This document shows, piece by piece, positions 3,924 to 38,380 of a stretch of 43,731 bases of DNA. The stretch is from positions 1-43,731 of the forward strand of contig NZ_JAPHUF010000005.1 of assembly GCF_026196735.1 (NCBI RefSeq), read 5' to 3'. The position numbers and the translations under genes are program-made. The stretch's first letter is position 1. Each line of letters starts with the position of its first letter. Below the pieces are notes generated by a model. It made no database searches. It was not told where the DNA came from and saw only the letters and a program-made list of their open reading frames with translations. The stretch comes from Sulfurimonas sp. Lineage in GTDB: Bacteria; Campylobacterota; Campylobacteria; Campylobacterales; Sulfurimonadaceae.

Positions 3924-4607
3924 TTATGCTCCTATACTCTCTTTGATTTTATGAATAACTGATTTATGAATTTGTGATATTCTAGATTCTGTTATATTTA
4001 AAATCTCACTTATCTCTTTAAGTGTCAGTTCTTCAAAGTAGTAAAACTGTATTACAAGCTGTTCTCTCTCAACAAAATCTCCAAGAACTTTCTTGATAAC
4101 ATTAATTAATTCTTCTTTCTCTATTTGAGCAAGTGCTGCACCCTCGTCACCAACCTGTAGTTGATCATGAAGAGGCATAACCGTGTATATAGTTGAAGCG
4201 ATTCTCGCATCATGTACTTTTTCAATACTCTCATCTAAGAGTATAGCCAACTCTTCATCTGTCGGCTCTTCTTCATGTGTCACTCTGTACTCTTCGATAG
4301 CATAATCAATTGCTTTAACCAGTTTTCTGCTGGCACGAGAGAGTATATCTAAGCTTCTTAGATAATCAAGCATAGCACCATAAACTCTTTTTTTTGCATA
4401 ACCCCAAAAAGAGTCATTAAGTTTTTCATCATATCTTCTGGCTAATTTTATAAGCTCTTCGGTTCCAATTGCAGATAAGTCCATATAGTCAATAGAACTT
4501 GGCAGTCTCTCTTTAAGTCGAAATGCCATTGCTTTAACAGCAGGCAAATATTGGATAGCAAGTTCATCTTCTTTGTGCTTGATATCTTGTGTGTAAGCCT
4601 CAATCAT
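3924..4607 (-). CDS. fliA: RNA polymerase sigma-28 factor FliA
   Basis: FliA is the alternative sigma factor for late flagellar genes and is normally held by the anti-sigma factor FlgM until the hook is complete. The 227-residue protein has sigma region 2 (about 15-90, including FWGYAKKRVYGAMLDYLRS), region 3, and a C-terminal region 4 helix-turn-helix (about 190-222, LTLKEISEILNITESRISQ). It overlaps the upstream small membrane protein gene by 4 bp and is 1 bp from fliM. In Campylobacterota its promoters resemble TAAA-N15-CGATAT/A. A site of this type is found in this same window before a pilin gene (33858-33884). Confidence 0.95.
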   Translation of the reverse strand: MIEAYTQDIKHKEDELAIQYLPAVKAMAFRLKERLPSSIDYMDLSAIGTEELIKLARRYDEKLNDSFWGYAKKRVYGAMLDYLRSLDILSRASRKLVKAIDYAIEEYRVTHEEEPTDEELAILLDESIEKVHDARIASTIYTVMPLHDQLQVGDEGAALAQIEKEELINVIKKVLGDFVEREQLVIQFYYFEELTLKEISEILNITESRISQIHKSVIHKIKESIGA

Positions 4608-29197: not shown

Positions 29198-30664
29198 TTG
29201 GCAAAGCGAGTAGCAGTCATAGACATAGGTTCTAACTCTGTTAGAATGGTCGTCTATGAGAGAACTTCTCGATTTGCATTTCATATACTCCACGAGAGCA
29301 AAAGCAGAGTTAGGCTATCTGAAAATGCTTATCAAAATGGTGGCAATCTTCAAGAAATTGCTATGCAAAGAACTTTTGATGCCCTTGAAAACTTCCTATC
29401 AATAATAACATCATACAAAGCTAGAAAAACTCTATGCGTTGCCACTTCAGCACTTAGAGATGCCCCCAATAAAAAAGATTTTATTCTTAGGGTCAGAAAT
29501 TCTCTCGGCCTTAATATAAAAGTAATAGACGGACAAAGAGAGTCTTATCTTGGAGCCATCGCCTGTGCTAATCTTCTACCGGAACAAAATAATGCTCTGA
29601 GTATTGATATTGGTGGCGGATCAACTGAGTTTTCACTTATTAACAAAAAAAATATCGATAATAATATCTCTCTCAATTTGGGAACAGTAAGATTAAAAGA
29701 ACTTTTTTTTGATAATAATGACTTAGATGGTGCTAAAGAGTACATAGATACTCAGCTTTTAAAATTAGACTCTATTCATGCCTTAAGTATTGTTGGAATC
29801 GGTGGAACATTTAGAGCTATCTCATCTGCATTGATAAGCAGCAGCAACTACCCGATAAAAAAACTACACGCTTATGAATCTAACTATAAAGAGTTTAGTG
29901 AGTTTTTGAAACAAATTTTAGACTCTGATGAAGATCAATTAAAAAAGTTGGGAATCAAAAAAGATAGATTTGATGTTATAAAACCTGGTGCTTTGATATT
30001 AGATAGGATTTTAAATAAATTTGAAATCAAAAACCTTATAACAAGCGGTGTGGGCGTCAGAGAAGGAGTGTTCTTATCGGATTTACTTAGAAATTCAAAA
30101 GACAAACTCCCTGCAAACTATAACACATCGGTAAGATATATACTTGATTCACATGTAGATAATACTGCTTACTCAAACCAACTAAATAAAGTTGCAAAAT
30201 CACTTTTTGATATGACTTATGAAGCGTTTGATATAGATAAAACACATCGCTATGAGCTGGCAATTGCATCTAAACTATGCATGAGCGGCAGCAATACACA
30301 TTTTTACTCACAGTATAAACATAGTTACCATCTTATTCAAAATGTATTAGAGTTTGGTTTTACTCACAAACAAATTACCCTTATTGCTACACTGGTAAAG
30401 TATGCAGGAAGAAAACTTCCCTCATCATCACATATACAAAAATACAAAGAATTGCTTCCAAACACTCAGCAACTAAATTATCTTAGCAATATATTATCTC
30501 TTAGCATCGCTCTATTGAGTCATAGACCTAGAAATATCAACTTTACTCTTAGCTTTAAAAACAATGAACTCACGGTAACATCAAAAGACAATCTCTATTT
30601 AGCAAAAGATAGCGTAAAGAAACTAGATTCAACAAAAAGCTTCTCTATAAAATTCTTATCTTAA
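29198..30664 (+). CDS. ppx: Exopolyphosphatase / (p)ppGpp phosphohydrolase (Ppx/GppA)
   Basis: An ASKHA-fold phosphatase that hydrolyses inorganic polyphosphate and/or the 5' phosphate of pppGpp. The start is TTG 29198, giving MAKRVAVIDIGSNSVRMVVY, the phosphate-1 motif at the very N-terminus. Further motifs are CVATSALRDAPNK, IDIGGGSTEFSL (phosphate-2) and SIVGIGGTFRAIS. About 180 residues after the catalytic core (about 310-488) form a helical HD-like domain as in longer Ppx proteins. Length is 488. Which substrate dominates cannot be told from the sequence. It shares a transcript with the upstream ferredoxin. Confidence 0.92.
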   Translation: MAKRVAVIDIGSNSVRMVVYERTSRFAFHILHESKSRVRLSENAYQNGGNLQEIAMQRTFDALENFLSIITSYKARKTLCVATSALRDAPNKKDFILRVRNSLGLNIKVIDGQRESYLGAIACANLLPEQNNALSIDIGGGSTEFSLINKKNIDNNISLNLGTVRLKELFFDNNDLDGAKEYIDTQLLKLDSIHALSIVGIGGTFRAISSALISSSNYPIKKLHAYESNYKEFSEFLKQILDSDEDQLKKLGIKKDRFDVIKPGALILDRILNKFEIKNLITSGVGVREGVFLSDLLRNSKDKLPANYNTSVRYILDSHVDNTAYSNQLNKVAKSLFDMTYEAFDIDKTHRYELAIASKLCMSGSNTHFYSQYKHSYHLIQNVLEFGFTHKQITLIATLVKYAGRKLPSSSHIQKYKELLPNTQQLNYLSNILSLSIALLSHRPRNINFTLSFKNNELTVTSKDNLYLAKDSVKKLDSTKSFSIKFLS

Positions 30665-30746: not shown

Positions 30747-31142
30747 ATGCGTCAAACATTTGTAATATTTTTTATATTACCGACATTTATTTATGCTGCA
30801 TATAACCCTTTCTTTAGCGACACCAGTGTACCAAAACAAAAAGAACCAGAAGTAAAAATAATTTATAAAGAACCTAAGCCAAAACCAAAAAGAACTGATA
30901 TAAAAATAAGTTATTTTGGGTTTATTGAAAGCAACAAAGGTAAATTTGCATTGGTAAATATAAAAGGTAAAAATATAGTCTTAAAACAAAAAGACTCTGT
31001 ATACATTGGAGAACAAGTAGTAAAGGTTGTTAAACTTTCAAGTAATTATATAGTTTTAAAAGACGGTTATAACACTCCACAAACAATATACTTTAGCTCT
31101 AAATTACCAGATAGAAATACGGAGTATAATAATGCTAGGTAA
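30747..31142 (+). CDS. PilP/GspC-like periplasmic pilus assembly protein
   Basis: The 131-residue protein has a signal peptide (about 1-18, ending FIYAA). A Lys/Pro-rich linker follows (about 28-50, with KEPKPKPKR). A small all-beta domain is last (about 52-118: YFGFIESNKGKFALVNIKGK ... YIGEQVVKVVKL ... IVLKDG). This pattern matches the homology-region domain of PilP/GspC/MshK proteins, which link the inner-membrane complex to the secretin. It is the first gene of the operon and overlaps the secretin gene by 11 bp. In Campylobacter the gene before the secretin is ctsR, required for transformation; equivalence is likely by position only. Confidence 0.65.
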   Translation: MRQTFVIFFILPTFIYAAYNPFFSDTSVPKQKEPEVKIIYKEPKPKPKRTDIKISYFGFIESNKGKFALVNIKGKNIVLKQKDSVYIGEQVVKVVKLSSNYIVLKDGYNTPQTIYFSSKLPDRNTEYNNAR

Positions 31143-32640
31143 ATCTACTCTATTTATTTTTTTAATAGTAGCTTTATTTATACACGGTTGTTCTAATGAT
31201 TATAAAAAAGAAGTACTCAAAAAAGAGTTAAAAAAAGAATTTGATGACTTAACAAAAAAAGTGCCACAAGAATCAGCAATAAAAACAATAGAAGTTAGTG
31301 CTGAAAACTTCAAAGTTACTAAAAATATAATACCTGACAATGAGCAGATAAAGCGTATTAAAATTTTGGGTGCACCACTAGATGATGTAATTGCACTTCT
31401 TAGTGAAGCAACGGATCAAGATATTATTTTTCAAACTCAATCTCAAAATGATTCTAACCAAATCAGCAATAATAATTATAATAACAACAATACTGGTCTG
31501 CGTACAAATAGTGTTAGAACTTATAACTATAATAATAATAACAATAATAATCAATCACATGACAATAACCTAGAAGTTGGAAATCAAGATACGGGTACAG
31601 CTAATGTTTTCTTATCAGCATCAAATATTGGATTTGGAAAACTACTAAAGAAAACTGTAGGTGATAAACTTAGTATCAATTATGATGATGGAACTTATTA
31701 TCTTGGGTATGTTAAAACTGTGACTTTAAAGATACCATCTATCACTGAGTTGGCTGAACAGATGAAAAATACATTAACAACTCTTGGCGCACTCAATGTT
31801 GTTCAAGACTCTGTTACATCTACAGTTACATTTTCTGCAAGAGAAAAAGAGTATCAAGATATTATGAAATATCTTACAATACTTAGAAACAACCTTTATG
31901 TCATAGAGTATGATATAGCTATTTATGATGTAGACCTTAATGATAACTATAGCCTTGGCATTGACTGGAGTCTTGTTCCAACCGGTGCTAAAGACTTAGA
32001 GTTTACTTCTCAGACTTCTTCATCATTTGGAGCAGCCGGTACTGTAGCTACATCTGCAGTATTTGGAACTTTGCTAAACAACGAATATTTTTCTGCATCA
32101 ATGATAGGAGAAGCACTAACTAAATTTGGAACTGTTGAGAGTATTCAAAAACCAAAACTGCTTGGTATTGCCGGAACAGATGTAACACTTATTGATGGTG
32201 AATCAGAACAATACATATCAGGTTTAACTTCAACTGCAGTTGGAGACACAGGCATACAGACAACTACTCAAAATGCAACTGCACAGAGTGGTTTACAAAT
32301 AACACTAAACTCAAATATAATGGATGGAACCGTTATAACAGACATCAACTTAGTGGTTAATGATATTGTAGGTTATAGTGACTTTAGTGTTGGAGATACA
32401 TCTTATGCTCAACCAAAAGTGCGCACTAAGACTATTACAAACAACATAAGAGTTCAGCCGGGAGTACCTATTGTTATATCCGGTCTTTTTAGACACAAAA
32501 AAGACAAAGGATATAAAGGAATACCTGGCTTAGCTCAAACTGATGCGCGTATTTTAGGTGGCAGTGAATACACTTCTATGTCCAAAAGTGAAATGGTTAT
32601 CATTGTAACTCCAAGAGTTATCAAGTATGTAATGAAGTGA
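31132..32640 (+). CDS. Secretin (PilQ/MshL/CtsD type)
   Basis: Outer-membrane pore protein for a type IV pilus or related DNA-uptake system. A lipoprotein-type signal ends IHGC with Cys20. N-terminal periplasmic domains include the secretin N0/STN-like segment RIKILGAPLDDVIALLSEAT (75-94). An Asn-rich insertion follows at 106-151. Further N-domains lead to the C-terminal secretin domain (about 320-500), with SIQKPKLLGIAGTDVTLIDG, VRTKTITNNIRVQPGVPIVI and the closing SEMVIIVTPRVI. Length is 502 residues. It overlaps the upstream gene by 11 bp. The overall form is closest to MSHA-type MshL or Campylobacter CtsD. Confidence 0.9.
   Translation: MLGKSTLFIFLIVALFIHGCSNDYKKEVLKKELKKEFDDLTKKVPQESAIKTIEVSAENFKVTKNIIPDNEQIKRIKILGAPLDDVIALLSEATDQDIIFQTQSQNDSNQISNNNYNNNNTGLRTNSVRTYNYNNNNNNNQSHDNNLEVGNQDTGTANVFLSASNIGFGKLLKKTVGDKLSINYDDGTYYLGYVKTVTLKIPSITELAEQMKNTLTTLGALNVVQDSVTSTVTFSAREKEYQDIMKYLTILRNNLYVIEYDIAIYDVDLNDNYSLGIDWSLVPTGAKDLEFTSQTSSSFGAAGTVATSAVFGTLLNNEYFSASMIGEALTKFGTVESIQKPKLLGIAGTDVTLIDGESEQYISGLTSTAVGDTGIQTTTQNATAQSGLQITLNSNIMDGTVITDINLVVNDIVGYSDFSVGDTSYAQPKVRTKTITNNIRVQPGVPIVISGLFRHKKDKGYKGIPGLAQTDARILGGSEYTSMSKSEMVIIVTPRVIKYVMK
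31447..31584 (+). repeat. Asn-rich AAT/AAC tract inside the secretin gene
   Basis: Codons 106-151 are dominated by AAT and AAC (for example NNNYNNNN and YNYNNNNNNN). The runs are triplet-based, so slippage would change the length without breaking the frame. It separates the first periplasmic domain from the next and is probably a flexible linker. Confidence 0.8.
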
Positions 32641-32649
32641 TGGCATAAG

Positions 32650-33444
32650 ATGGCAATATTTACAGCAGGATGTATTGAAACTACTAACAACTCTAGCGAG
32701 ATAAGAAATAGTGTATATGAATTAGCAAGACATGATCTTGACTCTCCTGCTATGAAAATATCTGTTAGAAAATCTCCCACATGTATAAACTTCATAGCTT
32801 TTTTACCCAAAGACAAAATCATACAAGAAAACATTCTAAAAAAAGTTTCAGAATGTGAGAGCCGCACAGTAATAGTTTTTGAGCTTGATTATAAGTATGT
32901 CGGTGTTGTATGTGAATACAGACGAATCATAGATTATATTTTAGACAAACCAAAAGAGTTTGCGCAGGAACGAGGTTACGAGACAGTATTTGTTGATAAC
33001 GCTGATGGTGTAAAACTTGTCTCCTTTAATTTAGATGAAAATAATCGTAGAGCAAAGGCTGGATTTATATCCTTAGGATTTACGATTTTATTGACAACTA
33101 CTATCTTTTATAGTGGTTTTTATTATATGCAAGATACACAAATCAATAAAGGAAATAAGGACTCTTTAGAAAAACAATATAAAAATATTGTAAAAAATGA
33201 GTTTAAAAAATCTGAAAAAATTATAAAAAAAGTTGATATGGTTGAGGCTATCGAAGGTATTGAAAAATTAACAAAAGCTACTGAGTCAAGACTATCACAA
33301 ATTACATATAGTAAAAACAATATATGTGTCAAGATAGAGACTCCACAGGTTGAAACATTTGTAGGTATGCTTCCTAAAAATATTAAAATAAACCATAAAG
33401 ATATCATAAAAGGTGAGGTGCAATACTGTTATGAAACAATATAA
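32650..33444 (+). CDS. Pilus assembly protein with one membrane segment (PilN/GspL-like?)
   Basis: A 264-residue protein I cannot name firmly. Residues 1-130 are soluble and contain mixed alpha/beta sequence (FIAFLPKDKIIQENILKKV, TVIVFELDYKYVGVV). A single transmembrane helix is at about 137-160 (AGFISLGFTILLTTTIFYSG). A C-terminal extracytoplasmic part follows, with a Lys-rich coiled stretch and a short beta region. A cytoplasmic domain, one membrane helix and a small periplasmic domain is the plan of GspL or fused PilM-PilN proteins, which fits its place between the secretin and the next small membrane protein. No Walker motif is seen. The next gene overlaps its end by 14 bp. Confidence 0.6.
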   Translation: MAIFTAGCIETTNNSSEIRNSVYELARHDLDSPAMKISVRKSPTCINFIAFLPKDKIIQENILKKVSECESRTVIVFELDYKYVGVVCEYRRIIDYILDKPKEFAQERGYETVFVDNADGVKLVSFNLDENNRRAKAGFISLGFTILLTTTIFYSGFYYMQDTQINKGNKDSLEKQYKNIVKNEFKKSEKIIKKVDMVEAIEGIEKLTKATESRLSQITYSKNNICVKIETPQVETFVGMLPKNIKINHKDIIKGEVQYCYETI

Positions 33445-33871
33445 CCTAATCATCCTTTTTATTCTTATACTAGTCACTATAAGTGTCTCAAGCTATTTCT
33501 TTTACTTAGACATAATTTATAAAGACAAACTTGTAAAAACAGATGTAAAGTCACTGTACGATTTAAAGCGTATTGCAGGAAAGCCCATAGTGCAGTACGC
33601 TAATCCCACTGAATTGGAGGAGAAGATTGTTGAGTATAATCAGATTATACTTGAACTAAATATTGACGCTATTGCTGAAATAGAAAACAATATTATAGTA
33701 ATTCGTGGAGCTATTCATAATAGCTTTTCGTATATATTACTAAAAAGACTACTAGATATCGTGAAAAACGATGAAGTAAATTTGAATACAACTTGTATTG
33801 GAAAGGAGTGCACTGAAGATAACTTTGGGTTTTTAATAAAAATTAGGCCGTACTTATTAAAGTTAAAATAG
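33431..33871 (+). CDS. Small single-span membrane protein of the pilus operon (PilO/MshJ-like?)
   Basis: A 146-residue protein with an N-terminal transmembrane segment (about 5-27, NLIILFILILVTISVSSYFF) and an extracytoplasmic domain of about 115 residues. The domain has PilO-like alternation: LEEKIVEYNQIILELNIDAIAEIENNIIVIRGAI, then SYILLKRLLDI. Two cysteines (CIGKEC) could form a short disulfide loop. The start chosen is ATG 33431; a GTG 18 bp upstream is possible. It overlaps the previous gene by 14 bp. Position after a PilN-like gene supports a PilO role, but similarity is weak. The sigma28-type promoter of the next gene begins 11 bp before its stop. Confidence 0.6.
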   Translation: MKQYNLIILFILILVTISVSSYFFYLDIIYKDKLVKTDVKSLYDLKRIAGKPIVQYANPTELEEKIVEYNQIILELNIDAIAEIENNIIVIRGAIHNSFSYILLKRLLDIVKNDEVNLNTTCIGKECTEDNFGFLIKIRPYLLKLK

Positions 33872-33884
33872 CAGTTGCCGATAT
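33858..33884 (+). promoter_or_regulatory. Sigma28 (FliA)-type promoter for the main prepilin gene
   Basis: TAAAGTTA (33858-33865), eleven bases, then GCCGATAT (33877-33884). Against the enteric sigma28 consensus TAAAGTTT-N11-GCCGATAA this is 7/8 plus 7/8 with exact spacing. CGATAT is also the form seen in campylobacterial flagellin promoters. Transcription should start near 33891, giving a leader of about 26 bases with AAAAAAGGA before the ATG at 33917. The site spans the end of the preceding gene and the 45-bp gap. Confidence 0.78.
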
Positions 33885-33916
33885 ACAGGTTAACTTACAA
33901 AAAAAAGGAATTAAAC

Positions 33917-34585
33917 ATGAAACAAGGAAGTAACATGACTGTAAGTCATAAAGGAATGAGAAAAGGTATCTCTTTAATGGAGATGTTAGTTGCAATTATC
34001 TTGCTAGGTATTTTATCGTCAGTTGGTTTTACTTACTACAAAAACTACTATAGTACAGCACTTGCTGCAAAACAGATTAAAGTTGCAATTTTACTTGATC
34101 AAGCTGCACAGCTGAAAAATGGCTTAGAGTTATACGCTGTTAAAACTGGTGTAGATGCTAACTCATCTGTTGCAGATCCAGCAGATGCTAACAACGGTTT
34201 AGGTCTACTTGTAGCACAAAGAATTATTACATCTATACCTGCAACAATTCCGGATATGTCTGATCAAGGTTGGTTCGTATCAACTAATACTGTAGATATT
34301 GATAGTACTTTTATTCAAACTCAGGGTGGTACAACACTGAATGAACAATTTCTTACTTATGATTTGAATGGTACAGCGGTAGGTTCTGACAGACAAGACT
34401 ACTGTAATGCTCTTAATAACATCGCTTCTAACGGTGCATTAAGTTATGATGTTGTTGAAGCTGGCTTAGGTGCTGATATCAATGCATCAGCTGAATTAGC
34501 TAACAATACTTTCTTCTGTTGGGATTCTGATACTGGTACAGCTGATTCTGGTCAGCAGTTAGTATTCTTAACAAAGATTCAATAA
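33917..34585 (+). CDS. Type IV-like prepilin, probably the major pilin
   Basis: A prepilin of 222 residues from ATG 33917, which has AAGGA at a proper distance; ATG 33935 (after AAGGAAG) and ATG 33956 are alternatives. An upstream in-frame ATG at 33875 lies inside the promoter and is unlikely. The cleavage site is RKG|ISLMEML, with Ile at +1 and the conserved Glu5, followed by a hydrophobic helix AIILLGILSSVGFTYY. The C-terminal part has two cysteines (DYCNAL and FFCWD), compatible with the pilin disulfide loop. Codon use (GGT, GTT, GCA, few rare codons) looks like a highly expressed gene, and it has its own sigma28-type promoter. These point to the main pilus subunit. Confidence 0.85.
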   Translation: MKQGSNMTVSHKGMRKGISLMEMLVAIILLGILSSVGFTYYKNYYSTALAAKQIKVAILLDQAAQLKNGLELYAVKTGVDANSSVADPADANNGLGLLVAQRIITSIPATIPDMSDQGWFVSTNTVDIDSTFIQTQGGTTLNEQFLTYDLNGTAVGSDRQDYCNALNNIASNGALSYDVVEAGLGADINASAELANNTFFCWDSDTGTADSGQQLVFLTKIQ

Positions 34586-35074
34586 TTGCGTCAAGCGTTT
34601 TCACTGCTTGAACTATTACTTGCTATAGCCCTTGCGGGGGTTATGGCATACACTGCATCTTTTTATCTAGACATTGATTCAATATCCAAACAAAATGTCA
34701 AAACTCAGCTTCAATCTCACTTTAATATTATTACATCGGTAATTTTACAATGTAAAGAGCATAGTAATGTTTTCCCAATTCAAAGTAACGGTTCACTAGC
34801 TTCTGGCACTCTTTTAAGTACCCTAGAATGTAATACGACAACCCCATATCAACTAGATGGCGGCAAAGGCAGTTTTATACCTCCTGCACTCGATAATTTT
34901 ACAGCTTATACAGCTACACAAAACGGCAGTGAATTTTACTTCTCCACAACTACCGCTATAAACTCAGTAAATGATGAAGTTTTACTAGAGTTAAATACTA
35001 CATACTCTCCAAATCAATACGAACTTACTCACGATGCTACAACAGCTTTTTTAAACTTTTATCTATCTCGTTAA
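34586..35074 (+). CDS. Second prepilin/pseudopilin with atypical leader
   Basis: The TTG start at 34586 follows the pilin stop directly and gives MRQAFSLLELLLAIALAGVM. The mature N-terminus FSLLELLLAI with Glu5 is classic, but the residue before the cleavage site is Ala instead of the usual Gly. Prepilin peptidases accept Ala less well. The leader is only four residues. Length is 162. The body has two cysteines (LQCKEH and LECNTT). No ribosome site is evident, so translation probably depends on coupling to the upstream pilin gene. It is most likely a minor pilin. Confidence 0.8.
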   Translation: MRQAFSLLELLLAIALAGVMAYTASFYLDIDSISKQNVKTQLQSHFNIITSVILQCKEHSNVFPIQSNGSLASGTLLSTLECNTTTPYQLDGGKGSFIPPALDNFTAYTATQNGSEFYFSTTTAINSVNDEVLLELNTTYSPNQYELTHDATTAFLNFYLSR

Positions 35075-35104: not shown

Positions 35105-36685
35105 ATGAACCAAAAAAATAATATGAATTTAAAAAAAATATTAACGCCAAAACAAATAGAAGTATGTAAAGAAGAAAAATCATATTACCAGCGTATAGGC
35201 ATTAATAAAAATATATTACAAATAGCTATTGAACATAATTTTATTAAAAAGAAAGAAAAAAACAACCCTCACTCTCTAGAACTGCTTAAAAAATATGAAA
35301 TAATAATTGCCGACGAAAATGAAAACAGTTTTTACATTGAAAGCAAAGAACTTCTTGGTCCAAACAGATTAAAAGAACTAAAAGAGCTGCTACAAAAAAA
35401 TGTAATTCAAAAAACAATTCCAGTACGAGAATTTAACGAAAAATTTGATCTTATTCTTAGCATAGACCCGGATATTATTGAAAAGAAAATAAAACAGTTT
35501 AATGCATTTGACTCGGATGATACAGAGATACTAGCTCTTTTAAGAATGATATTAAAACATGCTATTAAAAACAGTGTAAGTGATATTCATATAAATGCCT
35601 ACGAAGAATTTTCTTGGTTAAGATATAGACAAAATGGCATAATTCAAGCAAAACATCTTCTAAACAAAGAACTGGCACAAAGGTTCTCATTGATTTTAAA
35701 AGAAAAATCACGCATAGATCTCATAGATGTAAAATCCCCGCAAAGTGGAGGATTTACAGAAGAATTTGATAATGGTGTAGTAGATTTTCGTATAGAAATC
35801 GCACCATCAATTTTTGGTGAGAATATTGTTGTTCGTATTCTTGATAAATCAAATAATTTAAAATCTCTTGAACAACTTTTTCCAAAAGACCATCCCATGG
35901 GTGAACATCTTTTTCGTTTTGTAAATGAAAAAAATGGTTTCTTTCTTGCAGTTGGACCAACCGGTAGCGGTAAAACAACAACATTAAATGCCATACTAAC
36001 GCAAAGAGACAGGTTACATGAAGTAATATACACAGTTGAAGATCCAATTGAGTACAAGATTGATTTTATTACGCAATATCAAGTAAACGAAGCTGTTGGA
36101 TTTAACTTTGATACGGCTATGAAGTCTATAATGCGTCAGGATCCAGATGTTATTGTTATTGGAGAGATGAGGGATAAACTAAGTATTCAAATTGCTCTAA
36201 AGGCTTCTCATAGTGGGCATATGGTATTTTCTACCCTTCATACAACAAATGCCTACATGGCACTAGAGCGTATTCGAGATGAAGGCGGAGACCTTTTTAT
36301 ATTAGCCTACTCATTAAGCGGTGTAGTTGCTCAAAGACTTGTGCCAAAACTGTGTGAGTGCAAAAAAGAATCTACGCAAAAGAACGGACAAGAGTATTTT
36401 AAATCAGATGTTATGGGATTTGAAAAAAATGGATGCATTAAGTGTAATTTTACCGGCTATTACAGTAGAGCGTTGCTTACTGACATCGTATTTATACCAC
36501 CGGACATGAAAACAAGATATACATTTTATATGGCACTTAAAAACAGCTCAGTTTTGCAAGCTTGGGATAATCTTATAACATTTAGTTATTACCAATCAGC
36601 ACAATATCTATATAATAAAGGATTATGTGACTACGAAACGCTTAAATCAGAGCTCTTTTCACTTGGATATGTAGATGAAGATTGA
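35105..36685 (+). CDS. Type II/IV secretion ATPase (GspE/PilB/CtsE family)
   Basis: The assembly ATPase that powers pilus extension or DNA-uptake pseudopilus building. An N-terminal MshEN-like region (about 10-110) precedes the N2 domain and the RecA-like core. Walker A GPTGSGKT is at 284-291, the Asp box is VIYTVEDPIEYKI, Walker B DVIVIGEMRD is at 348-357, and the His box is GHMVFSTLHTTNA. The tetracysteine metal-binding motif is present (LCECKKES ... GCIKCNFTGY). Length is 526 residues. No ribosome site precedes the ATG; an in-frame Met at codon 7 is possible. It overlaps the GspF gene by 11 bp. No retraction ATPase (PilT) is encoded in this locus. Confidence 0.93.
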   Translation: MNQKNNMNLKKILTPKQIEVCKEEKSYYQRIGINKNILQIAIEHNFIKKKEKNNPHSLELLKKYEIIIADENENSFYIESKELLGPNRLKELKELLQKNVIQKTIPVREFNEKFDLILSIDPDIIEKKIKQFNAFDSDDTEILALLRMILKHAIKNSVSDIHINAYEEFSWLRYRQNGIIQAKHLLNKELAQRFSLILKEKSRIDLIDVKSPQSGGFTEEFDNGVVDFRIEIAPSIFGENIVVRILDKSNNLKSLEQLFPKDHPMGEHLFRFVNEKNGFFLAVGPTGSGKTTTLNAILTQRDRLHEVIYTVEDPIEYKIDFITQYQVNEAVGFNFDTAMKSIMRQDPDVIVIGEMRDKLSIQIALKASHSGHMVFSTLHTTNAYMALERIRDEGGDLFILAYSLSGVVAQRLVPKLCECKKESTQKNGQEYFKSDVMGFEKNGCIKCNFTGYYSRALLTDIVFIPPDMKTRYTFYMALKNSSVLQAWDNLITFSYYQSAQYLYNKGLCDYETLKSELFSLGYVDED

Positions 36686-37724
36686 TGCCTATACCATGCT
36701 AAAGACCCTGCATTTTACTATTAAAAACGGTAAGAGCATATCTAGTGCTATGAATTTACTCGCCAACACTGCAAAAACAAAACAAGAAAAAAAAATATAT
36801 ACTAAAATCTATGATGATATAAAAAATGGCTATAGTTTCTCTAAAGCACTATTTCAACATAAAATAGCTTCATTAGATGTCATAAACTTTATAAACCTTG
36901 CTGAAAAAGGTGCTAATTTTCGCATTGCCTTAGAAAAAATTATTCACTATATTGAAGTAAAAGATGAGTTTGAGAGAGAATCAAATGCAAAAACCACTCT
37001 TCCAATCATCTACTTCGGTATCGCATCACTAATTGTACTTGGGGTGAAGTTTTTTGCTGTTCCATATCAAATGGCTGAAGTTGCCAGCTACAATCAAATA
37101 GTAAAAGATTTAGTAGCTGACCACTTAGAGTTAGCACAGTTAATGACGGATATACTGTTCATCAGTCTTGTCCTAATAGCTAGTTATTTTTTTATTTTAC
37201 TGGCTGCACTATTTAGTCAATCAAGAACCATGCAAGCAGGTGCCAAACAATTGGCATTAATTCTTCCTTTTACATCATCTATTGTAATGAAGTTTGAAAA
37301 ATTTATGCTTTTTAGTATGCTTGGAGAGATGCTGCAAAGCGGAATATCCTTTCAAAAAGCCATGAATTCAGCTATACCCACTACAACTGTTAAGAAGTTT
37401 AAAAAAGCTATTAGAAGCACTTTAGATATTATAAAACATGATGGTAAATTCACTTTGCATCCTGATTTGTATGATGATTTGGAACAAGGCCTTCTTTCAG
37501 GTGTTGGTACATCTAAACAGATTGGTTCTGTTATGCTAGAAATAAGCGACAGAGCTAGAACTGATGCGTTAAAACTGAGTACAAAGTTTTTTCGTCTAAT
37601 CACCATACTATCGATTTTCTTAATGGCTTTTGCAGTATTTATTGAGTATTACACAATTGTTTTAACACAAATAATCATACAAAAAGGCTTTATAGATGCT
37701 TCAAAAACAGGAGTTTTCAACTAA
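36675..37724 (+). CDS. Inner-membrane platform protein (GspF/PilC/CtsF family)
   Basis: The cytoplasmic-membrane platform on which the ATPase acts. The 349-residue protein has two repeated GspF domains: residues about 10-130, starting TLHFTIKNGKSISSAMNLLA, and about 210-330, with MLFSMLGEMLQSGISFQKAM. Three hydrophobic segments are at about 108-128, 158-178 and 310-335 (LITILSIFLMAFAVFIEYYT). The order ATPase then GspF with overlapping reading frames is standard for type II/IV systems and for Campylobacter ctsE-ctsF. The last base of its stop codon is the first base of the next start. Confidence 0.9.
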   Translation: MKIDAYTMLKTLHFTIKNGKSISSAMNLLANTAKTKQEKKIYTKIYDDIKNGYSFSKALFQHKIASLDVINFINLAEKGANFRIALEKIIHYIEVKDEFERESNAKTTLPIIYFGIASLIVLGVKFFAVPYQMAEVASYNQIVKDLVADHLELAQLMTDILFISLVLIASYFFILLAALFSQSRTMQAGAKQLALILPFTSSIVMKFEKFMLFSMLGEMLQSGISFQKAMNSAIPTTTVKKFKKAIRSTLDIIKHDGKFTLHPDLYDDLEQGLLSGVGTSKQIGSVMLEISDRARTDALKLSTKFFRLITILSIFLMAFAVFIEYYTIVLTQIIIQKGFIDASKTGVFN

Positions 37725-38380
37725 TGCGTAGTGGTTATTTTTTAGTTGAAGCTATGATAGCTATTATCATTACAGGTATTGTAGCCGGTGCTTTTACCAT
37801 GATGAACTATTACACAAGTATCCAATCAGATATATTAAAGCAGCAAAACACTAAAACAATTCTAGAAATTGTTCGAAGCAGGTTAATCAGCCTAGCCACA
37901 GACCCTGATTCTGACTCATATTTTGAATTACCCAAAGAGGATGCGAACAATACTCTGCCTGTTAGCATTGGTGTTGGTACAGATGCTTGGGGCAAATTAA
38001 TATACTACTCTACTATAGACCTTGGAATACCCAATGTTGTGGACGGAAATTATTCAGATACAAATACTTCCATATCACCAAACAACAATATTGCAGGTCG
38101 TTTAATCAGCTATGGTGAGGATATGATACTTAGCACAGATTCTAATCATAGCACTGCACAAGGTGATGATATAATGCTTGAAATTGGTCTTGGAGAACTG
38201 AACCATTTTAAACTTTATGGTAGTTCTGAGATTAGTACAGAAACACGCGGTTACAATAGTGCTATAGTCTCTGCATCTGAACCGGCTACTCCCATAAACG
38301 GTGCTCTATGGTATGACACAGTAACTTCTAAACTAAAAATATACTCCCAAACTGATTCTAATTGGACTATTTTAAATTAA
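37724..38380 (+). CDS. Third prepilin-like protein (minor pilin)
   Basis: The N-terminus MRSGYFLVEAMIAIIITGIVAG has the prepilin pattern: a short basic leader, Gly before the cleavage point, Glu5 in YFLVE, then a hydrophobic helix. Tyr at +1 is unusual. The 218-residue body is larger than most pseudopilins. It contains ALWYDTVTSKLKIYSQTD near the C-terminus, which resembles a short motif common in phage tail and surface proteins (GALWYDT), perhaps a binding face. The start overlaps the GspF stop by one base. A tip-like or minor pilin role is inferred from its size and single copy. Confidence 0.78.
   Translation: MRSGYFLVEAMIAIIITGIVAGAFTMMNYYTSIQSDILKQQNTKTILEIVRSRLISLATDPDSDSYFELPKEDANNTLPVSIGVGTDAWGKLIYYSTIDLGIPNVVDGNYSDTNTSISPNNNIAGRLISYGEDMILSTDSNHSTAQGDDIMLEIGLGELNHFKLYGSSEISTETRGYNSAIVSASEPATPINGALWYDTVTSKLKIYSQTDSNWTILN

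Follow-up and report, generated by a model that had tools for sequence, protein, structure and literature searches.

A promoter for the flagellar sigma factor FliA (sigma28) very likely precedes a type IV prepilin gene of Sulfurimonas sp., as an earlier note on this DNA had proposed. The predicted promoter is located at positions 33858-33884 of the window, i.e. the whole analysed stretch of 43,731 nucleotides, inside a type IV filament cluster. We regard it as highly probable that it drives the pilin together with flagellin and FlaG, which would possibly link it to completion of the flagellar hook. This reading is supported by the conservation of the site in all 13 loci of the genus that could be read, by its association with particular pilin copies in Sulfuricurvum, by the same type of site in front of flagellin and FlaG-like genes, and by the presence of genes for FliA and FlgM.

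Predicted promoter and surrounding filament cluster

The E. coli sigma28 consensus is TAAAGTTT-N11-GCCGATAA. The site in the window reads TAAAGTTA-N11-GCCGATAT on the forward strand, and the fit of 14 out of 16 positions with exact spacing, previously stated for it, was confirmed against this consensus (spacer 11). It also agrees with the sigma28 pattern TAAAGTTW, 11-base spacer, GCCGATAW or CGATWT core. The earlier note had placed the whole site in the small gap in front of the prepilin gene. This holds for the -10 box but not for the -35 box, which is formed by the last codons of the upstream gene, nor for the spacer, which contains its stop codon; the gap comprises 45 bp (33872-33916), and of the two promoter boxes only the -10 box lies inside it. 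The ribosome site and the ATG are indeed found just downstream, with 32 bp between the -10 box and the ATG. For C. jejuni the sigma28 element is described as CGATwt 6-8 nt upstream of the start site (PMC3847290), and the transcription start in the window was placed according to this spacing (Table 1).

Table 1. Positions of the predicted promoter elements, the filament cluster and fliA in the window
Feature	Position	Strand	Basis or remark
fliA, sigma28 factor expected to read the site	3924..4607	-	TIGR02479 over cut-off; PRK06986 262 bits vs cut-off 201
131-aa protein, first gene of the cluster	30747..31142	+	without Pfam/NCBIfam family match
Secretin	31132..32640	+	PF00263; nearest NCBIfam model MshL (TIGR02519), below cut-off
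264-aa protein	32650..33444	+	PilM/PilN or GspL-like fold suggested by low-confidence model
146-aa protein, CtsX/PilO/GspM-like (upstream gene)	33431..33871	+	position and size only; end encodes part of the promoter
-35 element TAAAGTTA of predicted sigma28 (FliA) promoter	33858..33865	+	overlaps codons 143-145 of the 146-aa gene
11-base spacer	33866..33876	+	holds last Lys codon and stop (33869-33871) of the 146-aa gene
-10 element GCCGATAT	33877..33884	+	core CGATAT 33879-33884
Predicted transcription start	33890..33892	+	from the 6-8 nt spacing in C. jejuni (PMC3847290)
Ribosome binding site AAGGA	33905..33909	+	read directly
Type IV prepilin, 222 aa, leader ...MRKG/ISLMEM	33917..34585	+	PF07963 and TIGR02532 over cut-off
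Second prepilin, directly behind the first	34586..35074	+	TIGR02532 over cut-off
Assembly ATPase, GspE/PilB type	35105..36685	+	PF00437 over cut-off; TIGR02533/TIGR02538 best, below cut-off
GspF/PilC-type protein	36675..37724	+	PF00482 over cut-off
Third prepilin-like protein	37724..38380	+	N_methyl, below cut-off

The cluster is located about 29 kb from the flagellar block containing fliA. It encodes a prepilin leader with Glu5, an assembly ATPase, a GspF/PilC-type protein and a secretin, and can be assigned to the type IV filaments (pilus or type II secretion) on this basis. Two PilT-family genes over cut-off are present on other contigs of the genome and may or may not serve this system. 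The 222-aa prepilin, which we infer to be the major subunit, contains two cysteines that are invariant in an alignment of 19 sequences. A Foldseek search with its structural model (pLDDT 72, pTM 0.64) had no match at E 0.001; C. difficile PilA1 was the best chain (E 0.42). The model of the 264-aa protein (pLDDT 68, pTM 0.40) hit two PilM chains below E 0.001, though the TM scores were poor, so that a PilM-like nature may serve as a lead. Sequence searches of solved structures yielded nothing strong, and the 146-aa protein had no match to Pfam or NCBIfam at E 0.01.

A terminator-like hairpin is present where the second pilin gene begins (34591-34611); it might favour the mRNA of the first pilin. 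Furthermore, the pilin of the window is 95% identical to that of genome G032 (L008 / L112), whereas the neighbouring 146-aa proteins share just 77%. Between G032 and G062, in turn, the 146-aa genes are 95% identical, but the pilins are further apart than those of the window and G032. This mismatch between pilin and neighbouring gene suggests an exchange of pilin alleles between species.

Conservation and specificity of the site

Of 135 genomes of the genus, 14 carry the gene for the 146-aa protein (6 of the 79 good-quality genomes), and the cluster is thus patchily distributed. In 13 of the 14 the sequence is readable beyond the end of this gene; locus L035, whose contig ends inside the gene, was left out of all counts. 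All 13 keep the site in the same place with an invariant CGAT, matching at 14-16 of the 16 positions (with A and T both accepted at the final base of each half) and always with a spacing of 11. The earlier note had named the absence of the motif from related species as an argument against its reading; instead, every readable orthologous locus contains it.

At the DNA level, the 146-aa gene is 66-95% identical between genomes (median 71%). When the gap is aligned from the stop codon, the columns TGCCGATAT are identical in 12-14 of 14 rows, compared to 6-9 of 14 for the preceding four columns and 4-10 of 14 for the following seven; farther downstream, in the A-rich stretch of the ribosome site, identity rises again to 8-13 of 14. 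These rows comprise 12 genomes of the genus as well as L124 and L127, the stop codon of the latter lying off the aligned place; L023 could not be included because of an insertion. The site is a phylogenetic footprint.

The -35 box lies within codons for the C-terminus LKLK of the 146-aa protein, which is invariant in 13 of 13 sequences, so part of its conservation is due to protein coding. It might even be that the region is conserved only as code for this protein end and resembles a sigma28 promoter by chance, but this explanation has next to no probability. The best-conserved stretch of the gap, the -10 box, lies downstream of the stop codon. Moreover, the synonymous positions of the -35 box are fixed as well: Lys144 is encoded by AAG in 13 of 13 cases (22% of the Lys codons in the remainder of the gene), Leu145 by TTA in 12 of 13 (22% elsewhere) and Leu143 by TTA or CTA in 13 of 13 (44% elsewhere). 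The binomial values for this bias ignore kinship and are indicative only; the pattern points to constraint on the synonymous positions, with the motif being kept by selection. In L023 about 64 extra bp separate the stop codon of the 146-aa gene from the -10 box, and a second TAAAGTTA is found at the right spacing outside the frame, i.e. the promoter unit exists here apart from the reading frame. In Sulfuricurvum the unit even occurs in front of later pilin copies, where no CtsX-like gene ends. Protein-coding constraint alone was ruled out by L023, the codon constraint and the gap columns. The insertion of about 64 bp between stop and promoter, observed in L023 (G104) and also in L118, is flanked by copies of TAAAGTTAAAATAA.

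A scan of the window allowing up to 3 mismatches found the pilin site, with 0 mismatches, as the only match. Shuffled windows contained on average 0.64 such matches, and 49 of 100 shuffles held at least one, so that the window taken by itself tests this only weakly. The pilin site is the sole exact match in the 2.19 Mb genome. Up to 3 mismatches there are 73 sites, compared to 50 for the reversed control, and weight was therefore given only to strong sites. With one mismatch, three more sites were detected in this genome: two of them precede a flagellin gene and a FlaG-like gene, respectively, and the third is internal to an unrelated reading frame. The 14 genomes with the 146-aa gene contain 26 sites that deviate at no more than one position (reversed control: 2), spread over 12 of the 14 genomes. 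Twelve precede this pilin, 6 flagellin and 7 FlaG-like genes (flagellin and FlaG-like genes named by eye), and one is intragenic. The two genomes without such a site are G154, with a truncated pilin region, and G008, with two mismatches at its pilin site. Apart from the pilin, strong sites in these genomes are almost confined to the regions in front of flagellin and FlaG-like genes.

With a weight matrix derived from 13 flagellar sites, the window site scored 25.8 bits, within the flagellar range of 22.0-26.3 bits. This matrix is not fully independent, since its training sites were found with the pilin's own pattern, but the gene downstream of each training site played no part in finding it. 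The second pilin and four further pilins that N_methyl detected in the genome lack a sigma28 site, their best matrix score being 3.4. The only other window site of at least 9 bits, at 30187 (12.9 bits), is intragenic and has no CGAT; accordingly, the third prepilin-like gene has no sigma28 site either. A chance match was ruled out by the uniqueness of the site in the genome, the sites with at most one mismatch in the 14 genomes and the scan of 26 loci given below.

Sulfuricurvum, the sister genus and other families

A profile search with the 146-aa protein in 398 genomes of the order gave 9 matches, of which 3 belong to the genus, 4 to the sister genus and 1 to another family; the ninth (L106, E 5.8e-4) is marginal and lies outside the loci read. 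The 264-aa profile yielded 26 named loci, assigned to Sulfurimonas, Sulfuricurvum and others named to family level or above, with no Campylobacter-named locus among them. In these 26 loci (354 kb) we detected 25 sites of at least 14.5 bits: 21 before the pilin (in 20 loci), 3 before flagellin and 1 elsewhere. Ten first-order random controls contained 0-5 sites (mean 1.6). Among the six other loci, five break off before a judgement is possible (L120, L129, L130, L135, L143); in L129, L130 and L135 only a first pilin, without site, is in view. The sixth, L111/L139, has GCCGATAT with a -35 box at spacing 10, under the threshold of 14.5 bits.

The -10 box lies 28-37 bp from the ATG of the leader at all 21 pilin sites, and 57 bp from it in the sub-threshold L139. 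A sigma28 transcript serving mainly as a leader or small RNA, or made for the second pilin and the assembly genes rather than for the first pilin, is difficult to reconcile with this short distance, with the ribosome site in between and with a leader that is unconserved save for its A-rich stretch. Sigma28-dependent non-coding RNAs have reportedly been found in Campylobacter, and even so we consider such a transcript very improbable.

Seven Sulfuricurvum loci carry two or three tandem copies of the major pilin each. In the pilin tree the site precedes all members of one paralog clade (7 of 7, support 100/100) and one other copy (L138). The other 10 copies of these loci in the tree, the first pilin among them, have no site; the eleventh row without site is L139. 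On the whole pilin tree the site label changes 3 times, compared to 9.4 times when shuffled. The first pilin of L134 is mostly masked, yet was kept in the tree. L119 is not part of it, because its leader is not in the same frame as the remainder of the pilin in this metagenome assembly. L140, also named Sulfuricurvum, carries a single such pilin; here the site immediately follows the CtsX-like gene. In the sister genus, CCGATCT is found behind the CtsX-like gene in three of four loci read (L102-L104, but not L101); this may be the remnant of a -10 box. Within the DNA covered, 3 of the 7 duplicated-pilin loci (L134, L137, L138) have a flagellin gene immediately after the pilin cluster, preceded by a sigma28 site of its own. 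The same arrangement was observed in L108 of the sister genus.

That the site goes with particular pilin copies after duplication also bears on how much it contributes. From 30747 onward the cluster runs without interruption on one strand, the pilin being in its middle. Promoters farther upstream in it could also transcribe the pilin. It is conceivable, though unlikely, that a vegetative promoter upstream provides most of the pilin mRNA and FliA only a small or conditional share. Sigma70-like matches do occur in the cluster, but with 38 matches compared to 39.9 in shuffles this consensus scan is uninformative. Against such a minor role stand the association with certain copies, the strength of the site, which equals that of flagellin sites, and its retention at every one of the 13 readable loci in the genus.

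An order-wide search for the motif in 90 genomes gave matches in 42, with 92 sites compared to 72 in the reversed control. Family f7 (genomes G042, G159, G175, G188, G200, G212 and G225) accounts for 42 strict sigma28 sites versus 4 in the control; outside f7 there is no excess (50 versus 68). According to inspection by eye, the targets in f7 include pilins, PAS-domain-like proteins, likely exported proteins or lipoproteins and a cytochrome c-like gene, perhaps indicating an enlarged FliA regulon. Of the 92 sites 89 were read, the three others being sites of the own genome already known; the stretches L214, L217 and L223 end at contig ends. Five sites precede unrelated type IV pilins, four of them in f7 (L182, L186, L203, L222) and one in f10 (L174). 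The f7 pilins are of a different type IV kind (FTMIEL...). L182 is the only site of its genome, and the control of the same genome also contains one. The four f7 sites seem to deserve some weight, the f10 site little; the former may be taken as a lead, not as proof, that the connection of FliA with pilins arose more than once.

A wider reading would be that FliA control of pilins is general and repeatedly re-acquired in Campylobacterota, making swimmers piliated by design. In Sulfuricurvum the promoter would then have gone with one duplicated copy, leaving an apparent relic behind the CtsX-like gene in some loci, and at least one further family of the order (f7) would have brought unrelated type IV pilins under like control. 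We put this forward tentatively, as possible rather than probable.

Proposed regulation and comparison with known systems

The own genome encodes FliA and FlgM, and FlgM was found in 9 of 9 genomes tested. The FliA model scored over cut-off in 11 of the 14 genomes and just under it in G093; in the incomplete genomes, G008 has a fragment at a contig end and G154 no clear hit. According to the mechanism we propose, FliA holoenzyme would read the site, start near 33891 and transcribe the pilin as well as the second pilin, the transcript possibly continuing into the assembly ATPase, the platform gene and the third pilin. The pilin mRNA would then rise in step with the flagellin and FlaG mRNAs, which are expected from the same promoter type in the same genome. 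Transcription by FliA at this site is inferred from the promoter sequence. Since both FliA and its anti-sigma factor FlgM are encoded, a link of pilin supply to hook completion is possible: FlgM would hold FliA until the hook is finished, and FliA activity, hence pilin supply, should rise afterwards. Cells turning into swimmers would thus also become piliated.

Swimming by flagella and holding on by pili are often viewed as opposed states under opposed control. In Sulfurimonas and Sulfuricurvum, the sigma factor that serves flagellin also seems to direct production of a pilus-like filament's subunit. Motile cells are predicted to be piliated, and this would be relevant to surface finding, attachment or DNA uptake; the filament could be used for surface contact in swimming cells or for DNA uptake. 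A literature search of mostly open papers (main texts) showed no FliA-controlled pilin in Campylobacterota among the best-ranked matches.

The promoter resembles the FliA-dependent promoters of flagellin and flaG; the same bipartite element occurs with the same spacing and strength in the same genomes. The distance from the -10 box to the ATG is 66-80 bp for 8 flagellins and 36-53 bp for 6 FlaG-like genes, compared to 28-37 bp for the pilins. A group 3 sigma factor controlling a type IV pilin is also found in Synechocystis, where pilA1 reportedly depends on SigF; SigF, however, is not FliA, and cyanobacteria are not known to have flagella. The cluster shares with MSHA pili that the best NCBIfam match of its secretin is MshL, but this match reaches 92.9 bits compared to a cut-off of 250.2 bits, and no other Msh-named NCBIfam match was found.

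In C. jejuni the gene for the GspF-type CtsF comes next after that for CtsE. The Cts genes preceding it are described in the order CtsD secretin (cj1474c), CtsP (cj1473c), CtsX (cj1472c) and CtsE ATPase (cj1471c) (PMC8308473). In gene order, the filament cluster agrees with this natural transformation system; in the description consulted, FliA control of cts genes is not mentioned. It differs from the published arrangement (PMC8308473) by pilin genes between the CtsX-like gene and the ATPase, and the CtsP- and CtsX-like proteins have 264 and 146 aa here compared to 202 and 195 aa in C. jejuni. Another tie between type IV pili and flagella is the C. jejuni motor. According to a 2025 preprint, PilMNOPQF type IV pilus components were taken into the ancestral Campylobacterota flagellar motor, and the motor scaffold genes examined there were not under control of RpoN or FliA (PMC11870540). 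As far as described there, this is a structural link, distinct from the promoter link predicted here.

The closest known case of regulation is Bdellovibrio. For B. bacteriovorus and B. exovorus, FliA control of the Tad/Flp (type IVb) pilins flp1-flp2 is reported on the basis of a heterologous E. coli reporter (PMC5430801), so that regulation of a pilin by the flagellar sigma factor has a precedent. In this predator FliA is reported to be essential and is said to control about 77% of the attack-phase genes (PMC5430801). As with flp1-flp2, the pilin would be co-regulated with flagellin by the flagellar sigma factor, which is predicted here from sequence. Unlike the Bdellovibrio Tad operon, the Sulfurimonas cluster encodes a secretin, a GspE/PilB-type ATPase and a GspF-type protein; its ATPase reaches 37.4 bits with the TadA-type model TIGR03819 (cut-off 373.15 bits) and fits GspE/PilB best. 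The present case differs from Bdellovibrio in the class of filament, in the phylum (Campylobacterota) and in a predicted promoter inside the cluster which goes with particular pilin copies after duplication.
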